Positions 2,751-15,217 of a stretch of 22,069 nucleotides of DNA are shown in pieces. The notes below the pieces were generated by a model that was not told the DNA's origin, made no database searches, and saw nothing but the letters and a program-made list of their open reading frames with translations. Source of the DNA: a virus; the IMG/VR virus record IMGVR_UViG_3300035670_001349, positions 1 through 22,069 of that record. The stretch is one strand, 5' to 3'. Position numbers and translations under genes: made by a program. Within the stretch, counting starts at the first letter, position 1; every line of letters starts with the position of its first letter.

Positions 2751-3304
2751 TGACAAGATCATTAACTGCTGGAGTTATAGCCGAGATAGCAACTAATAAA
2801 CTCAATCCAGTAGAACTTGTTTATCTAGGAATTAGCACAGGAACTTATTACACAGATCATTATAAAGATTTAACCTTTGATGGAAATACTTACACAGCTT
2901 CATCATTATTCTTAGGAAGTTCTGAAGTACAAGAAACTGCTGATGTTTCAGTAAATACATTAACACTTAAATTTTCAGGTGCAGATACAACAATAATTTC
3001 TTTATTGCTTAACAACAATTACATGAACAAACCTGCAAAAGTTTATAGAGGTTTTTTAAATGATAGTCAGGCATTAATAGCTGACCCATTTCTTTTATTT
3101 GATGGAAGAATATCTAATTTTGCTCTTGAAGAAAATGCTACAACATCTTCAATCAACATAATTATAACTTCTCATTGGGCAGACTTTGAAAAGACTTCAG
3201 GAAGAAGAACTGCTGAGAACTCACAGAAACTTTATTTTCCTAATGACAAAGGTATGGAGTTTGCAAGTAAAACAGCACAAAAGATTAAGTGGGGTTCAGC
3301 ATAA
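2750..3304 (+). CDS. Tail-tip hub protein, DUF2163-like
   Basis: A 184-aa protein coupled to the preceding gene by a TAATG overlap. It resembles the N-terminal domain of DUF2163 / GTA gp13 hub proteins: 'PVELVYLGISTGTYYTDHYK' near the start, a 'LFLGSSEVQETADVSVNTL' strand pair, then 'LFDGRISNF' and a C-terminal 'GRRTAENSQKLYFPNDKG' with a final 'IKWG', the usual ending of this family. It should sit between the distal tail protein and the tail-tip protein. It lacks a separate C-terminal peptidase-like domain, and the next gene is not NlpC/P60 but an HlyC-like protein. Confidence 0.7.
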   Translation: MTRSLTAGVIAEIATNKLNPVELVYLGISTGTYYTDHYKDLTFDGNTYTASSLFLGSSEVQETADVSVNTLTLKFSGADTTIISLLLNNNYMNKPAKVYRGFLNDSQALIADPFLLFDGRISNFALEENATTSSINIIITSHWADFEKTSGRRTAENSQKLYFPNDKGMEFASKTAQKIKWGSA

Positions 3305-3717
3305 TGAATGATTTGTATAGAATAATACATTTATACAGACAATTTCCTAAATATGACAAATTTACTTACAAACAACTAACTGAGATGATTTATCCATCAA
3401 TTAATTTAGACCAATATCAAATTCACAGAATAGATAATCAAGATGTTGGATTTACTAACTGGGCTTATCTAAGCGATAATGTTGAACAAAGATTTAAACT
3501 TATTGGCAAATTAAAACCTAATGAATGGAACTGTGGAGATAATATTTGGGTTATGCAAGTAATTGCAAAAAGCCATGTTAGAGAGATTATGAAATGGGTT
3601 AAAGATTATTTTAGAGAAAGAATTGAAGTTAATGAATCTGTTAAATGGATTAGAGCAAATAATGATTTTCAAATTTACAGAAGATCAGAAAAATACAAAA
3701 GGGAGTTTCATATTTAA
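3304..3717 (+). CDS. HlyC/RTX toxin-activating lysine acyltransferase-like protein
   Basis: A 137-aa protein starting at ATG 3304 (TAATG overlap; an in-frame GTG at 3289 is less likely). It aligns by eye to HlyC, the GNAT-fold enzyme that acylates RTX toxins: 'NQDVGFTNWAYLS' (residues 45-57) against HlyC 'NYPVAYCSWANLS', and 'WNCGDNIWVMQVIA' (75-88) against 'WTSGDRKWFIDWIA'. In that alignment the HlyC catalytic His23 falls on Tyr17 and Asp92 on Gln85, so acyltransfer by the known mechanism is doubtful. It occupies the slot between the hub and tail-tip genes where GTA-like clusters place an NlpC/P60 peptidase. A role in modifying or assembling the tail tip is inferred; I know of no demonstrated function for such phage copies. 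Confidence 0.72.
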   Translation: MNDLYRIIHLYRQFPKYDKFTYKQLTEMIYPSINLDQYQIHRIDNQDVGFTNWAYLSDNVEQRFKLIGKLKPNEWNCGDNIWVMQVIAKSHVREIMKWVKDYFRERIEVNESVKWIRANNDFQIYRRSEKYKREFHI

Positions 3718-6576: not shown

Positions 6577-6586
6577 TAGATAGATT

Positions 6587-7015
6587 ATGAAACAAGTTTT
6601 TGGATTTGAAGGTCAATATTCTGTAACTAGAGATGGTAAGGTTTATTCTCATAAAAGAAATAGATTTTTAACACCAATGAATTTAAAAGGTTATAAAACT
6701 GTTAAATTTAGAGATTCTAATAATAAACAAAAAGCAACAAATCAATTAATACATAGATTAGTAGCAAAAGCATACATTCCTAACCCAAATAATAAACTAG
6801 AAATTAATCATAAAAATAGTATAAGAGATGATAATAGAGTTGAGAATTTAGAATGGGCTACAAGGTCAGAAAATAATCAACACGCATGGACTTATGGAAA
6901 TAAAGTTTTTAAAAAAACAAAAAAGTATTTAGATGCTGTTAAAAAAAATATTATTATTGCTAGAAATTATAGACTAAACAAATTAAAGAATAATACAAAT
7001 GCAACACGATTATAA
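6587..7015 (+). CDS. NUMOD4-HNH homing endonuclease (free-standing)
   Basis: A 142-aa protein with an N-terminal NUMOD4-like region ('FGFEGQYSVTRDGKVYSHKR', residues 5-24) and an HNH core: His56 in 'IHRLVAKAYIPNP', Asn74-His75 in 'INHKNSIRDDNRVENLEWAT', then a basic tail. This is a family of phage homing endonucleases that cut a homologous allele lacking the gene and spread by repair. It sits between the tail-tip and fibre genes and overlaps the fibre start by 17 bases, so it inserted without disrupting either neighbour. Lysine-rich, AT-rich coding resembles other mobile HNH genes. No intron or splice-related structure is evident. Confidence 0.9.
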   Translation: MKQVFGFEGQYSVTRDGKVYSHKRNRFLTPMNLKGYKTVKFRDSNNKQKATNQLIHRLVAKAYIPNPNNKLEINHKNSIRDDNRVENLEWATRSENNQHAWTYGNKVFKKTKKYLDAVKKNIIIARNYRLNKLKNNTNATRL

Positions 7016-8570
7016 CATAGCGAACCAGTCGTTCCCTTCATTTAGAACTGACTTAAATAATGCACTATCAGCTATACAAACTTGTAACTCAGGAACATCA
7101 AGACCAACTGGTGCTGTCGCTGGTCAAATTTGGCTTGATACGACATCAGCAACAACTCCTACTTTAAAATATTATGATGGTGCTGATGACATCTCTTTAG
7201 CAACACTTGACCATTCTGCTAATACAGTAAATTGGTTAGACTCAACTGTGTCCATAACTGGACTCTCTACTACTGCTACTGGAACTGTTTTAACACTTTC
7301 AGATTCAGCTTCTACAACAACAGTTAATCTTATTATAGATAATGAAAAAGAAATTCGCTTTCGTGAAGCTACTGCTAATGGAACAAACTATGTAGCATTA
7401 AAAGCACCTGCTAGTGTAAGTGCTGATTTAACTTTTACTTTACCTGCAACTGATGGAACTGCTGGACAAGCATTAACAACTAATGGTTCTGGTGTATTAT
7501 CTTTTTCAACTATACAAAGTCCAAGTGGATTTAGAAATATCGTTATCAATGGTGATATGCAAATTGCACAAAGAAGTACAAGTGTAGCTTCTATTACTAC
7601 ATCTGGTTATTATACTTTAGATAGATGGAATCCTATAATTACTACTATGGGAACTTGGACTATGTCGCAATCAACTGATGTACCTTCAGGATATGGATTT
7701 GCTAAATCTTTAAAAATGGACTGCACAACAGCAGATGCTTCACCTGCCTCTGGAGATAGAATTTATATTAGACAAAACTTTGAGGGACAGAATTTACAAT
7801 ATTTAAAAAAAGGAACTGCTAGTGCTGTATCTTTAACAGCATCATTTTGGGTTAAATCTACAAAAACTGGTACTTTTATTTGTGAATTACATGACACAGA
7901 TAATACTAGAAATATATCAAAATCTTATACTGTAAATACTACTAACACTTGGGAATTTAAAACAATTACATTTGCTGGAGATACAACTGGTGCATTAAAT
8001 AATGATAATGATTTAAGTCTTACTATAAACTGGTATTTAGGTGCAGGGACAGATTGGACATCAGGAACTTTAGCAACATCTTGGGAATCAATAACAAATG
8101 CAAACAGAGCAGTTGGACAAGTTAATTGTGCAGATAGCACATCAAACGATTTTTTAATTACTGGAGTTCAATTAGAAGCTGGAACAAGTGCTACTGATTT
8201 TGAGTTCTTACCTTATGATGTGTCTTTGCAAAGATGTTTGCGATATTATGAAAAAATTAAAGCAGAATCAACCAGCCAATTATTTGGTGCTGGTTTTAAT
8301 TTTAGTACTACTCAAGGAATTGCTTTAATAAATTGTTCAAAAAAAAGAACTGATGTTAGCGTAACATTTTCTAGCACAGTTGGAGATTTTGGTTTATATA
8401 GTGCAACTGGTACAATAATTACTGCAACTGCCATAGTTGCATCACGAGGAACTTCAATTAGTTTTGCAACAACAGTAACTGTTGCAAGTGGTTTAACAGC
8501 AGGAGATGGAACAACTTTTATTTCTAACCTAACAACTAATCCATATATAGAAATATCAGCAGAACTATGA
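6999..8570 (+). CDS. Tail fibre protein (expressed cassette of an invertible fibre gene)
   Basis: A 523-aa fibre. The N-terminal segment ('NIANQSFPSFRTDLNNALSA', then 'GAVAGQIWLDTT') is the virion-attachment region common in marine phage fibres. The middle holds 'FRNIVINGDMQIAQRSTS' and 'TASFWVKSTKTGTFICEL', beta-rich and carbohydrate-binding-like. At residues 399-413 ('TDFEFLPYDVSLQRC') it enters a 47-bp sequence that is repeated inverted at 9267-9313. The last 110 residues after that point (about 414-523) are the variable tip, ending '..ISAEL'. Inversion of the segment between the repeats would replace this tip in frame with the minus-strand version. The ATG at 6999 lies inside the homing endonuclease gene; only a weak AAAGAA precedes it. 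The next gene overlaps its stop (ATGA). Confidence 0.9.
   Translation: MQHDYNIANQSFPSFRTDLNNALSAIQTCNSGTSRPTGAVAGQIWLDTTSATTPTLKYYDGADDISLATLDHSANTVNWLDSTVSITGLSTTATGTVLTLSDSASTTTVNLIIDNEKEIRFREATANGTNYVALKAPASVSADLTFTLPATDGTAGQALTTNGSGVLSFSTIQSPSGFRNIVINGDMQIAQRSTSVASITTSGYYTLDRWNPIITTMGTWTMSQSTDVPSGYGFAKSLKMDCTTADASPASGDRIYIRQNFEGQNLQYLKKGTASAVSLTASFWVKSTKTGTFICELHDTDNTRNISKSYTVNTTNTWEFKTITFAGDTTGALNNDNDLSLTINWYLGAGTDWTSGTLATSWESITNANRAVGQVNCADSTSNDFLITGVQLEAGTSATDFEFLPYDVSLQRCLRYYEKIKAESTSQLFGAGFNFSTTQGIALINCSKKRTDVSVTFSSTVGDFGLYSATGTIITATAIVASRGTSISFATTVTVASGLTAGDGTTFISNLTTNPYIEISAEL
8191..8237 (+). repeat. Left arm of 47-bp perfect inverted repeat (fibre inversion site)
   Basis: Bases 8191-8237 are the exact reverse complement of 9267-9313, 47 of 47. 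Identity stops sharply on both sides (8190 g against t, 8238 t against c). The repeat encodes the fibre junction residues 399-413 in the same reading frame in both copies. Each arm contains the perfect palindrome TCTTTGCAAAGA (8223-8234 here). Confidence 0.95.
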
Positions 8571-8746
8571 TTATAAATGTAGAAAAATTATATATTAATG
8601 GTGTTGATTGTAAAACTTATAAAGTTATTTACAATAACAATAAAATAACTTTTGTACCATTAAACGAAGCAAACACAGACTACCAAGCTATTCAAGAATG
8701 GATTGCTGAAGGTGGCGAAGTAATAGATAACCCACCTACTGAATAA
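8567..8746 (+). CDS. Small fibre-partner protein of the expressed cassette (59 aa)
   Basis: A 59-aa ORF whose ATG overlaps the fibre stop (ATGA). It has a short strand-rich N-terminus ('VEKLYINGVDCKTYKV') and a C-terminal 'NTDYQAIQEWIAEGG' helix. The minus-strand protein at 8749-8928 is the same length and shares 'NTDYQ...W...G', so this is a family that travels with each fibre tip. By analogy with U of Mu it may be a tip-specific fibre assembly factor or a small structural protein; XkdW-like small tail proteins are an alternative. Function is inferred from context. Confidence 0.75.
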   Translation: MIINVEKLYINGVDCKTYKVIYNNNKITFVPLNEANTDYQAIQEWIAEGGEVIDNPPTE

Positions 8747-8748
8747 GA

Positions 8749-8928
8749 TTATTCGCTAATTTCGTCTGCTGGTAAAGGTGTATTTCCTTCTTCTAGCCAT
8801 TTTAAGTATTCTTGATAATCGGTATTAGGTAAATCAAATGGAATAAAAGCATTATCAGATAAACGACAAACAACTTTAGATTCAATTAATCCATTAGGTT
8901 TTTTTTGTTTTGGTAATAATTTATACAT
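8749..8928 (-). CDS. Small fibre-partner protein of the silent cassette (59 aa)
   Basis: A 59-aa minus-strand ORF whose ATG (8926-8928) begins two bases after the stop of the silent fibre tip. It contains 'NTDYQEYLKWLEEGN', matching 'NTDYQAIQEWIAEGG' in the plus-strand partner, in a protein of identical length. The sequences differ elsewhere, so the pair diverged with their fibre tips. It has no obvious promoter of its own in this orientation and would be expressed only after inversion. It ends two bases from the stop of the plus-strand partner. Confidence 0.75.
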   Translation of the reverse strand: MYKLLPKQKKPNGLIESKVVCRLSDNAFIPFDLPNTDYQEYLKWLEEGNTPLPADEISE

Positions 8929-8930
8929 AC

Positions 8931-9332
8931 TTATAACTCCGAATCAATTTTAATTTGACTTGTTGAAGAAGAATAAAAATAAGAAGCATTTCCAGCAGTA
9001 AATGATGATGTAAAACCAGTTCCAGATAAATGAAATCTTGAAACAGTTATATCACTTACTGTTATTGTTCCTGTTGTAGCAGGATAATTTACATCACTAG
9101 CTAAAAAATTTACAGTTCCAGAAACCGTTCCAACAGTAGGTAAGGTTATTGTAGGATTTGCTCTTTTTTGAGTTAAATAATTAAGATCTGCCTTAACAGC
9201 ACTAGTGGTATGAGCTTGACCACAACTAACAAATTCATCTAAATAAATTAATTCAAAATACCTCTGACATCTTTGCAAAGACACATCATAAGGTAAGAAC
9301 TCAAAATCAGTAGAACGAACTTGATTTAACAA
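8931..9332 (-). CDS. Silent alternative tail-fibre C-terminal cassette
   Basis: A minus-strand frame that encodes the fibre junction 'TDFEFLPYDVSLQRC' followed by 111 residues different from the expressed tip but of the same kind and length (110 in the expressed one) and with a similar end ('..IKIDSEL' against '..IEISAEL'). Upstream of the repeat the frame opens only after a TAG, with a TTG at 9332 as the sole possible start and no Shine-Dalgarno sequence. The residues there do not match the fibre, so it is not a stand-alone gene. It is best read as a store cassette that becomes the fibre C-terminus (N-terminal 398 residues unchanged) when the segment inverts. Most of it is beta-rich with Thr/Ser/Gly, as expected for a receptor-binding tip. 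Confidence 0.82.
   Translation of the reverse strand: MLNQVRSTDFEFLPYDVSLQRCQRYFELIYLDEFVSCGQAHTTSAVKADLNYLTQKRANPTITLPTVGTVSGTVNFLASDVNYPATTGTITVSDITVSRFHLSGTGFTSSFTAGNASYFYSSSTSQIKIDSEL
9267..9313 (-). repeat. Right arm of 47-bp perfect inverted repeat (fibre inversion site)
   Basis: This is the partner of 8191-8237, read on the minus strand at the start of the silent fibre tip. Beyond the repeat (above 9313) the minus strand no longer resembles the fibre, which shows that the copy is only a tip cassette and that this arm is the recombination boundary. Confidence 0.95.
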
Positions 9333-9355
9333 ACAAACTTTGACATAACTATTCT

Positions 9356-9463
9356 ATGATTATATTTATATTAGGAATTATCTTAGGATTATATCTTGAA
9401 TGGAAGTTTGAGATTGCCAAGTATATTATTGAATCAGTAAAAGAACATTTAAACATTAAATAG
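9356..9463 (+). CDS. 35-aa single-span membrane protein
   Basis: A 35-residue ORF: an N-terminal hydrophobic helix (residues 1-13, '[13 protein letters not shown]') then a charged amphipathic tail ('KEHLNIK' end). It lies just outside the right inversion repeat. The stop TAG shares its G with the GTG start of the next HNH gene. No Shine-Dalgarno is evident. Small membrane proteins are common in phage lysis regions, but nothing here says what it does; it may equally be a non-functional short frame. Confidence 0.45.
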
Positions 9464-13972: not shown

Positions 13973-14479
13973 CTAGTTATGAAAATTAATTTGAAATAAA
14001 AACTTATAATCTTTTATTTTCAAATCAATTTCTTCCTTTGTAACATCTATTTTACCAGATTCAATACCTGATTTAAGTAAAGCCATAACAAACATATATT
14101 CGTCTTTGTTAAATGCTTTAGATACTGGTTTATCTGCTATTTCTTTTTCAATAGTAGTTACAGCAGTATTAAAGTTATCAGCTTCAAAGTCATCAACATT
14201 AAAGCTGGTATCTGGTTTTGTATTAGCACCAGTAGGCAACTCCTGAATCATTGGAGTTTTATCTTCCTTACTAAGAACGAATAAACTTCCATTCTTTTTT
14301 GATGCACCACAAGTTACAGAAACAGTTTTATTCTTTTCTAAAAAACTAGGTTTAATTGCCGACCATAAAACTATTTCTTGATCGTTTACTTTAAACTTAA
14401 AATTAGGAAACTTGTTTGGAGTTCCATCTTTTGTAAGTCTATTATCGTAAACGTATTTTACTACTCCTTGTACGTTCAT
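13973..14479 (-). CDS. OB-fold single-stranded DNA-binding-like protein
   Basis: A 168-aa protein whose first 75 residues show an OB-like strand pattern ('VQGVVKYVYDNRLTKDGTPN', 'FPNFKFKVNDQEIVLWSA', 'KTVSVTCGASKKNGSLFVL'), followed by a linker and a helical C-terminus. It is next to the RecB/Cas4-like exonuclease, the common place of phage SSB. It lacks the usual acidic SSB tip. A good AAAGGAG precedes the ATG. Identity as an SSB is inferred from fold pattern and neighbours. Confidence 0.6.
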   Translation of the reverse strand: MNVQGVVKYVYDNRLTKDGTPNKFPNFKFKVNDQEIVLWSAIKPSFLEKNKTVSVTCGASKKNGSLFVLSKEDKTPMIQELPTGANTKPDTSFNVDDFEADNFNTAVTTIEKEIADKPVSKAFNKDEYMFVMALLKSGIESGKIDVTKEEIDLKIKDYKFLFQINFHN

Positions 14480-15217
14480 TTACTTTTCTCCTTTTTGGTT
14501 TAGGTAGCGATACATTTTTAGGCAGGAAATCGCCACATCTTCCTGCATTTCTCCTATTGGAAATTCTTTAATATTTAATTTTCCAGTTTTGGTACAATTA
14601 ACAATCACACCTTCTTTAACATCAATCCCAAGTTCTTCTTTAACACAAATCTTATAAAGATAAATTTGCACTAACATAGAATCTCTTATTCCTGATGATG
14701 ACTTCCAGTCATAGATAATATGCTCTCCTGATTTGTTTTTAAATAAAGCATCAAGAGTTCCAGTAAACTTATGAATACGACTTAGAACTTTACGTTCAGT
14801 AAATACAATTTCTAAACCTTCTTGCTTGTCGTACCATTCTTTAAACTTACCAAATGATTTTTTAATCTCAGGATTATGTATCTCAGGAACAATTCCTTTA
14901 TGAATATAATCTTCAATTAAGTTATGAACGTGAGTGCCGACTGAACCAGCATCAGACATACTTTGGTTAGGTGCTTTTTTAATTTGATCTGCAATCTTAG
15001 ACAATTCAATCTCATCATAGCTAACACCTGCTCTAATTAACTTTTTAAATTCTTCAGAACATATCTTAGCTGACCATAAGCCGATCACATTAGCTGGTGT
15101 CAAAATTTTGGTTATTCCAGTAGCACTAGGCAACTGCTCATCATTCCAAAAATACTGATGAAGCACTTGGTCAAAAAAAAGTGTTTCTTGATTATTGTAT
15201 AATTTAATTTCTTCCAT
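14480..15217 (-). CDS. RecB/Cas4-like PD-(D/E)XK exonuclease
   Basis: A 245-aa nuclease. The N-terminal 'FDQVLHQYFWNDEQLPSATG' is typical of phage RecB-like nucleases. Catalytic positions can be read as His98 ('GTHVHN'), Glu141 ('TERKV'), Asp156 ('TGTLDAL'), Asp170-Trp-Lys172 ('IIYDWKSSS') and Gln184 with Tyr188 ('VQIYLYK'). Enzymes of this group degrade or resect double-stranded DNA for recombination-dependent replication or repair. It lies directly upstream of the SSB-like gene and is preceded by a good GGGAAGG. No Cys cluster is visible, so it is unlike an Fe-S Cas4. Confidence 0.85.
   Translation of the reverse strand: MEEIKLYNNQETLFFDQVLHQYFWNDEQLPSATGITKILTPANVIGLWSAKICSEEFKKLIRAGVSYDEIELSKIADQIKKAPNQSMSDAGSVGTHVHNLIEDYIHKGIVPEIHNPEIKKSFGKFKEWYDKQEGLEIVFTERKVLSRIHKFTGTLDALFKNKSGEHIIYDWKSSSGIRDSMLVQIYLYKICVKEELGIDVKEGVIVNCTKTGKLNIKEFPIGEMQEDVAISCLKMYRYLNQKGEK

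Follow-up and report, generated by a model that had tools for sequence, protein, structure and literature searches.

An invertible tail-fibre cassette with paired tips and partners in a pelagiphage-like virus

Described fibre switches and the phage under study

The G segment of phage Mu (S-U / S'-U', with Gin) and the C segment of P1 (with Cin) exchange the C-terminus of a tail fibre together with its assembly partner. Both have short inverted repeats, one copy of which lies inside the fibre gene, and a tail-to-tail arrangement of the two halves; in the Mu-like SfMu, the inverted repeats are 34 bp long (PMC4406740). In the Min system of p15B and the Rin system of bifidophages, a serine and a tyrosine invertase, respectively, are encoded beside the array (PMC6109161), and several C-terminal tips with their crossover sites serve one constant N-terminus.

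The locus described here is a real invertible fibre cassette, which works like the Mu G segment and is placed outside that family by the features tested. It shares with Mu and P1 the joint exchange of tip and partner, the repeat inside the fibre gene and the tail-to-tail layout. Different from both, no serine invertase gene was found, either adjacent to the cassette or anywhere searched, the repeats lack the 26-bp dyad site, the block is about 1 kb long with partners of 59 amino acids, the proteins are unrelated, and there are nested relatives with three tips. These nested relatives resemble the Min and Rin shufflons in holding several tips and crossover sites on one constant N-terminus. Unlike in Min and Rin, no invertase was found here at the array, the crossover classes each have their own sequence and lie concentrically (class O outside class I), and every tip has a partner gene. 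The term Mu-like, used in an earlier sequence-only reading of this DNA, therefore holds for the inversion of a tip and partner block and fails for a Gin-type system, as neither a recombinase nor dyad symmetry was found.

The window, i.e. the whole stretch of DNA that was analysed, is a linear virus record of 22,069 bases (IMGVR_UViG_3300035670_001349) with a GC content of 30.7%. It is a genome fragment, and roughly a third of the genome is missing; the relative G001 (32,570 bases) is regarded as near complete because both of its ends fall in the capsid/scaffold region. Among deposited phages, the J-like tail protein of the window is closest to those of HTVC202P, HTVC112P, HTVC026P and HTVC111P (43-55% identity). 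The virus is aquatic and pelagiphage-like, in line with the earlier description as marine-like, and its closeness to Pelagibacter phages points to a host that is probably SAR11-like. The DNA pattern of the window's crossover site (T site) was not found in GTDB genomes, and a search with the J protein returned a single MAG with a distant relative, so that neither a host nor a prophage could be linked to the window.

The four cultured pelagiphages have a gene order similar to the window but, unlike the window, no inverted fibre cassette: in HTVC202P and HTVC112P, the sequence that follows the J gene lacks inverted repeats of at least 18 bp, and in HTVC026P and HTVC111P the genes of the fibre region are annotated on one strand only. 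In marine phages, including pelagiphages, C-terminal fibre regions vary strongly within populations and form metaviromic islands, for which inversion is not mentioned (PMC3909814). The cassette represents one concrete mechanism for such variability. A partial coverage of the literature yielded no account of marine phages with an inverting fibre.

A two-tip cassette present in both orientations

The cassette and its immediate surroundings in the window comprise the following features.

6999 to 8570, plus strand: tail fibre gene, 523 amino acids, constant in its N-terminal part as far as the left repeat, then tip A (PHROG 4492 tail fiber protein, E 8e-52)
8191 to 8237, plus strand: left 47-bp repeat, which lies within the fibre gene, encodes TDFEFLPYDVSLQRC and is a T-type crossover site (47/47 against the reverse complement of 9267-9313)
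8238 to 8570, plus strand: variable tip A, 110 codons plus stop, expressed orientation (tip family alignment A2)
8567 to 8746, plus strand: partner A, 59 amino acids, with an NTDYQ...W...G core and the end IDNPPTE
8749 to 8928, minus strand: partner B, 59 amino acids, with the end LPADEISE, silent orientation
8931 to 9266, minus strand: variable tip B, 111 codons plus stop, silent (PHROG 4492 tail fiber; expressed in the relative L088)
9267 to 9313, minus strand: right 47-bp repeat, inverted copy
9321 to 9349, plus strand: promoter-like element TTGATT-N17-CATAAC, just outside the right repeat and 6 nt before the next ATG
9356 to 9463, plus strand: membrane-type ORF of 35 amino acids behind the cassette

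The two partner genes meet stop to stop, two bases apart, and partner A is likely a tail-fibre assembly partner. Beyond the 47 exact bases, the inverted match extends imperfectly to 71 nt at 89% (8188-8258 / 9246-9316). When the block 8191-9313 is reversed in silico, an intact fibre of 524 instead of 523 amino acids results, followed by partner B. The coordinates, the 47/47 repeat, the lengths of tips and partners and the two-base gap in the sequence-only reading were exact to the base, and its proposal that inversion swaps tip and partner in frame is borne out by this reversal and by L088, which expresses the pair that is silent in the window.

The decisive evidence is comparative. Positions 8526-9195 of L088 (IMG/VR) match positions 9316-8645 of the window in reverse (672 bp, 89%), and the upstream J gene of L088 is collinear with that of the window at 91%; tip B and partner B, silent in the window, are thus the expressed pair in L088. 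The six T-type contigs are split 2:4 in orientation. Partner A is expressed in the window and in L173, and partner B in L088, L002, L001 and L169; in L088, L002 and L001, the relatives of partner A sit on the opposite strand. The repeats are exact over 57/57 bases in L088, 41/41 in L002, 31/31 in L169 and 47/47 in the window. L001 and L173 are identical in the J stretch used for the tree and show opposite states, with different tips. A near-identical phage pair that differs in orientation throughout was not found, the best cases being L001/L173 and L201/L219, the latter with nested sites. In the J tree, which has modest support, the orientation state changes several times. A search for both tip orders among related phages, as proposed earlier, thus returned both, with breakpoints at the repeats, and these relatives show that inversion does happen. 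Contigs that end at repeats were considered as a sign of mixed orientations and rejected, being too few and ambiguous. In L238, a contig of a different fibre lineage, the end falls exactly on a T-like motif (6577-6604), where the assembly may have forked at a switch of this kind.

The exact inverted match of 47 bp is far beyond chance. Under a stricter null model, in which both copies are forced to encode TDFEFLPYDVSLQRC, the probability that all 15 codon choices agree is 1.4e-4, computed with the codon usage of the phage itself. Because of this value, the DNA identity of the repeats taken alone is suggestive of active recombination, as had been proposed, and not overwhelming. The proposal gains from concerted evolution within genomes. 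Tip B is highly identical in the window and L088, including the first bases after the repeat. The second half of the T repeat differs between the two phages (TATGATGTGTCTTTGCAAAG versus ATTGATGTTAGCTTAGGTAG), and both copies agree within each genome. As the copies are alike within a genome and different between genomes, recombination must have equalised them after the two phages separated. An exchange of strands at a single fixed point does not suffice to transfer the differing stretch, whereas gene conversion or homologous exchange can do so.

The fibre and both of its tips match a tail-fibre family. For tip B, an AlphaFold model built with 13 relatives (mean pLDDT 73) shows one helix, which is encoded by the repeat, followed by a beta sandwich. 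Among solved structures, the model matches H-type lectins, pyocin fibre tips and phage tailspikes best, with E-values that are weak throughout, and its best viral structural matches are tail fibres. Sugar binding by the tip is plausible from this model, and from the resemblance to lectins and tail fibres we infer that a flip switches the host range.

Nested relatives and the element behind the cassette

Two further crossover sequences, I (26 bp) and O (29 bp), occur in the fibre gene of related phages, a diversity that lay beyond the view of a single sequence. Scans with exact patterns, which are biased towards conserved copies, returned 33 stretches for I and 16 for O; a set found through the J gene alone, free of this bias, agrees with the scans. 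In many contigs the sites are nested, O outside I. Both orientations were found for each crossover site. At the O site, the outer flanks stay fixed, and state A (L083, L086, L089, L145, L201, L212) and state B (L202, L203, L208, L219) differ by an exact swap of the inner flanks. L201 and L219 share a fibre N-terminus at 99.3% identity, and a linker of 243 bp is inverted between them at 98.8%. At the I site, L209 and L100 align in opposite directions over the entire segment from one repeat to the other, within flanks that are collinear at 90% and 85%. The two partner ends in the centre (KSIL and YPKE) are seen in either direction.

Flipping the nested loci in silico produced three different intact fibres (317-424 amino acids) in all nine loci (9/9), each followed by a small partner ORF. 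The nested relatives are thus three-tip switches, as opposed to the two tips of the window. In many phages, the repeats I and O keep a fixed and abrupt length of 26-27 bp and 29-31 bp, and they are at the same time conserved coding motifs of the fibre. The I site is invariant in 7/7 cassette genomes found through J alone, and a nearby stretch of 43 bp is equally invariant; site conservation was therefore dropped as proof of a recombinase site. In I-type cassettes (L083 9957-10542 and equivalents elsewhere), the partner genes overlap tail to tail by about 10 bp. The partner slots of these cassettes have constant borders (KSIL against YPKE) and a variable middle, as if for importing tips.

An element of the form TTGNNN-N17-[CT]ATAAN, a pattern defined after inspection of the sequences, is present at 19 of 20 distinct inverting loci and in 0 of 24 non-inverting relatives. 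The small membrane-type ORF downstream (35-36 amino acids in inverting phages) occurs in inverting and non-inverting relatives alike; in the 24 non-inverting relatives, it lies close behind the previous gene and the element is absent. Because the silent minus-strand genes interrupt the late operon, a restart by the promoter-like element would make sense: placed outside the right repeat, it probably restarts downstream transcription past the antisense silent block. The element lies so near to the ATG (about 6 nt) that a leaderless transcript is suggested. Two contigs that are otherwise 99.9-100% identical, L206 (near position 2923) and L224 (1788-1864), differ by a deletion of 78 bp just outside the right repeat, which takes out part of the small membrane ORF in L206.

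What flips the block

The Mu model predicts a serine invertase encoded in cis and crossover sites with dyad symmetry. Six-frame searches of the window, the cassette contigs searched and G001 gave no match to the families Resolvase, Phage_integrase or IS110-type (Transposase_20). For PF00239 (Resolvase), there was no match at E<=1 in the relatives, including G001, and none at E<=0.001 in the window fragment; PF00589 and PF02371 had no match in the phage records searched. A comparison of G001 with inverting relatives and with non-inverting ones, whose shared proteins are up to about 90% or more identical, showed that, apart from fibre tips and partners, inverting genomes have no private genes. 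The best dyad symmetry (12+2+12) in the I, O and T sites is no better than in shuffles (p 0.21-0.97), and a motif common to the three site classes is at best marginal. A diversity-generating retroelement was considered and does not fit: variation occurs by exchange of whole modules, and no reverse transcriptase was found among the window ORFs scanned. Two adjoining genes of the window are of interest for a recombination route.

14483 to 15217, minus strand: PD-(D/E)XK (Cas4/RecB-like) exonuclease (PF12705, E 7e-5; PHROG 298 exonuclease, E 6e-27)
13976 to 14479, minus strand: protein of 168 amino acids with a weak OB-fold prediction, perhaps SSB-like (low-confidence model, pLDDT 61)

The exonuclease is a candidate part of a homologous-recombination route. 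Structural matches of the 168-amino acid model are mostly OB-folds, none with an E-value below 0.001; the two proteins could together serve the annealing of short repeats.

On balance, we consider it fairly probable that the locus is an invertible two-tip fibre cassette acting as a host-range switch, which is flipped by general recombination and not by an invertase encoded in cis. Exchange would occur at the inverted repeats, which belong to the conserved coding stretch directly ahead of the variable tip, and the flip of a block of roughly 1 kb would join the other tip in frame to the constant N-terminal part. Each tip would move together with its own small partner gene, and the phage would alternate between two receptor-binding tips. 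The exchange itself may be carried out by phage exonuclease and annealing functions or by host RecA acting on the short repeats.

The competing possibility for the agent is a site-specific recombinase acting in trans on the same switch, either a host enzyme or a highly diverged phage protein. This explanation has been given for an inverted locus of a bifidophage that has no recombinase beside it (PMC6109161). The repeats themselves speak for such an enzyme where they look like sites: I measures exactly 26-27 bp at about 24 loci, with unrelated flanks on the silent side, O measures 29-31 bp with unrelated flanks, and the I sequence does not vary among the seven (7/7) J-derived cassette genomes. 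The same short, fixed lengths and unrelated flanks count against general recombination, for which 26 bp is short if RecA is involved. Further points against it are that the near-complete G001 uses the I site and not the T site, the window being incomplete, and that the phage SSB/annealing candidate is a weak prediction. The trans-acting enzyme in turn has to accommodate three crossover classes without a clear common motif or dyad symmetry, T repeats that differ in sequence and in length (31, 41, 47 and 57 bp) and are used alike, the lack of any gene that tracks with the cassettes and of any recombinase family match in the phage records searched, and the equally invariant 43-bp stretch, by which the conservation of I loses its uniqueness. 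The varied sequence and length of the repeats, their concerted evolution and the exonuclease gene are signs consistent with homologous recombination. We lean towards general recombination with moderate confidence and regard the unseen site-specific enzyme as a possible but rather doubtful agent.

Two other explanations dispense with inversion altogether. The reversed block might be a fixed second fibre module that is expressed from the minus strand, or a dead relic, and the silent ORF of the window could indeed begin at a TTG (8931-9332). This is very unlikely and largely refuted by the relatives, as judged from their sequences: the same modules occur in both orientations between flanks that stay fixed, the breakpoints lie at the repeats, and the silent tips, which have no fibre N-terminus, are intact and in frame after a flip in every case tested. 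Alternatively, chimeric contigs may have joined two strains at a common repeat. Short-read assemblers can be misled by inverted repeats, and the cassette contigs all come from metagenome assemblies of uncultivated viruses. Against such an artefact, the same tail-to-tail layout recurs in some 30 cassette contigs from many samples, the promoter-like element outside the right repeat is lineage-specific, and separate records agree with each other (L083/L084, 100% over 11 kb; L087/L088, 99.9% over 7 kb), which leaves it with hardly any probability.

A broader reading, which extends general recombination to the whole clade, has about an even chance in our estimation. It describes a programmed switch with two to three states in uncultured pelagiphage-like viruses, which operates without an invertase. 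Its crossovers would lie in conserved coding segments kept identical by general recombination, new tips would be imported from other phages into slots whose constant ends are the repeat on one side and the partner C-terminus on the other, and antisense storage of the silent genes would be tolerated by means of the promoter-like element. It seems that these phages alter their choice of cells through DNA inversion at short repeats. In such small phages (about 32 kb), a reversible fibre switch would help to explain the variability of fibre tips in viromes, and it bears on how SAR11 phages keep pace with changing receptors; SAR11-type bacteria are among the most abundant marine cells. If no invertase is involved, the fibre would be switched without any gene dedicated to the task, and tools that search for invertases would therefore miss such switches.

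Two neighbouring genes of the window deserve mention. A NUMOD4-HNH homing-type endonuclease gene (6587-7015) is inserted between J and the fibre gene, a gap of only about 22 nt in most relatives and of about 370 nt in L201. Homing HNH endonucleases beside the cassette were rejected as the flipping agent because the upstream one is absent from most inverting relatives. Between tail genes, positions 3289-3717 encode an HlyC-type protein (RTX toxin acyltransferase family, PF02794, E 8e-20). As a gene of this type is annotated at the corresponding position of HTVC112P, HTVC026P and HTVC111P, the protein probably is structural or modifies the tail in phages of this group.
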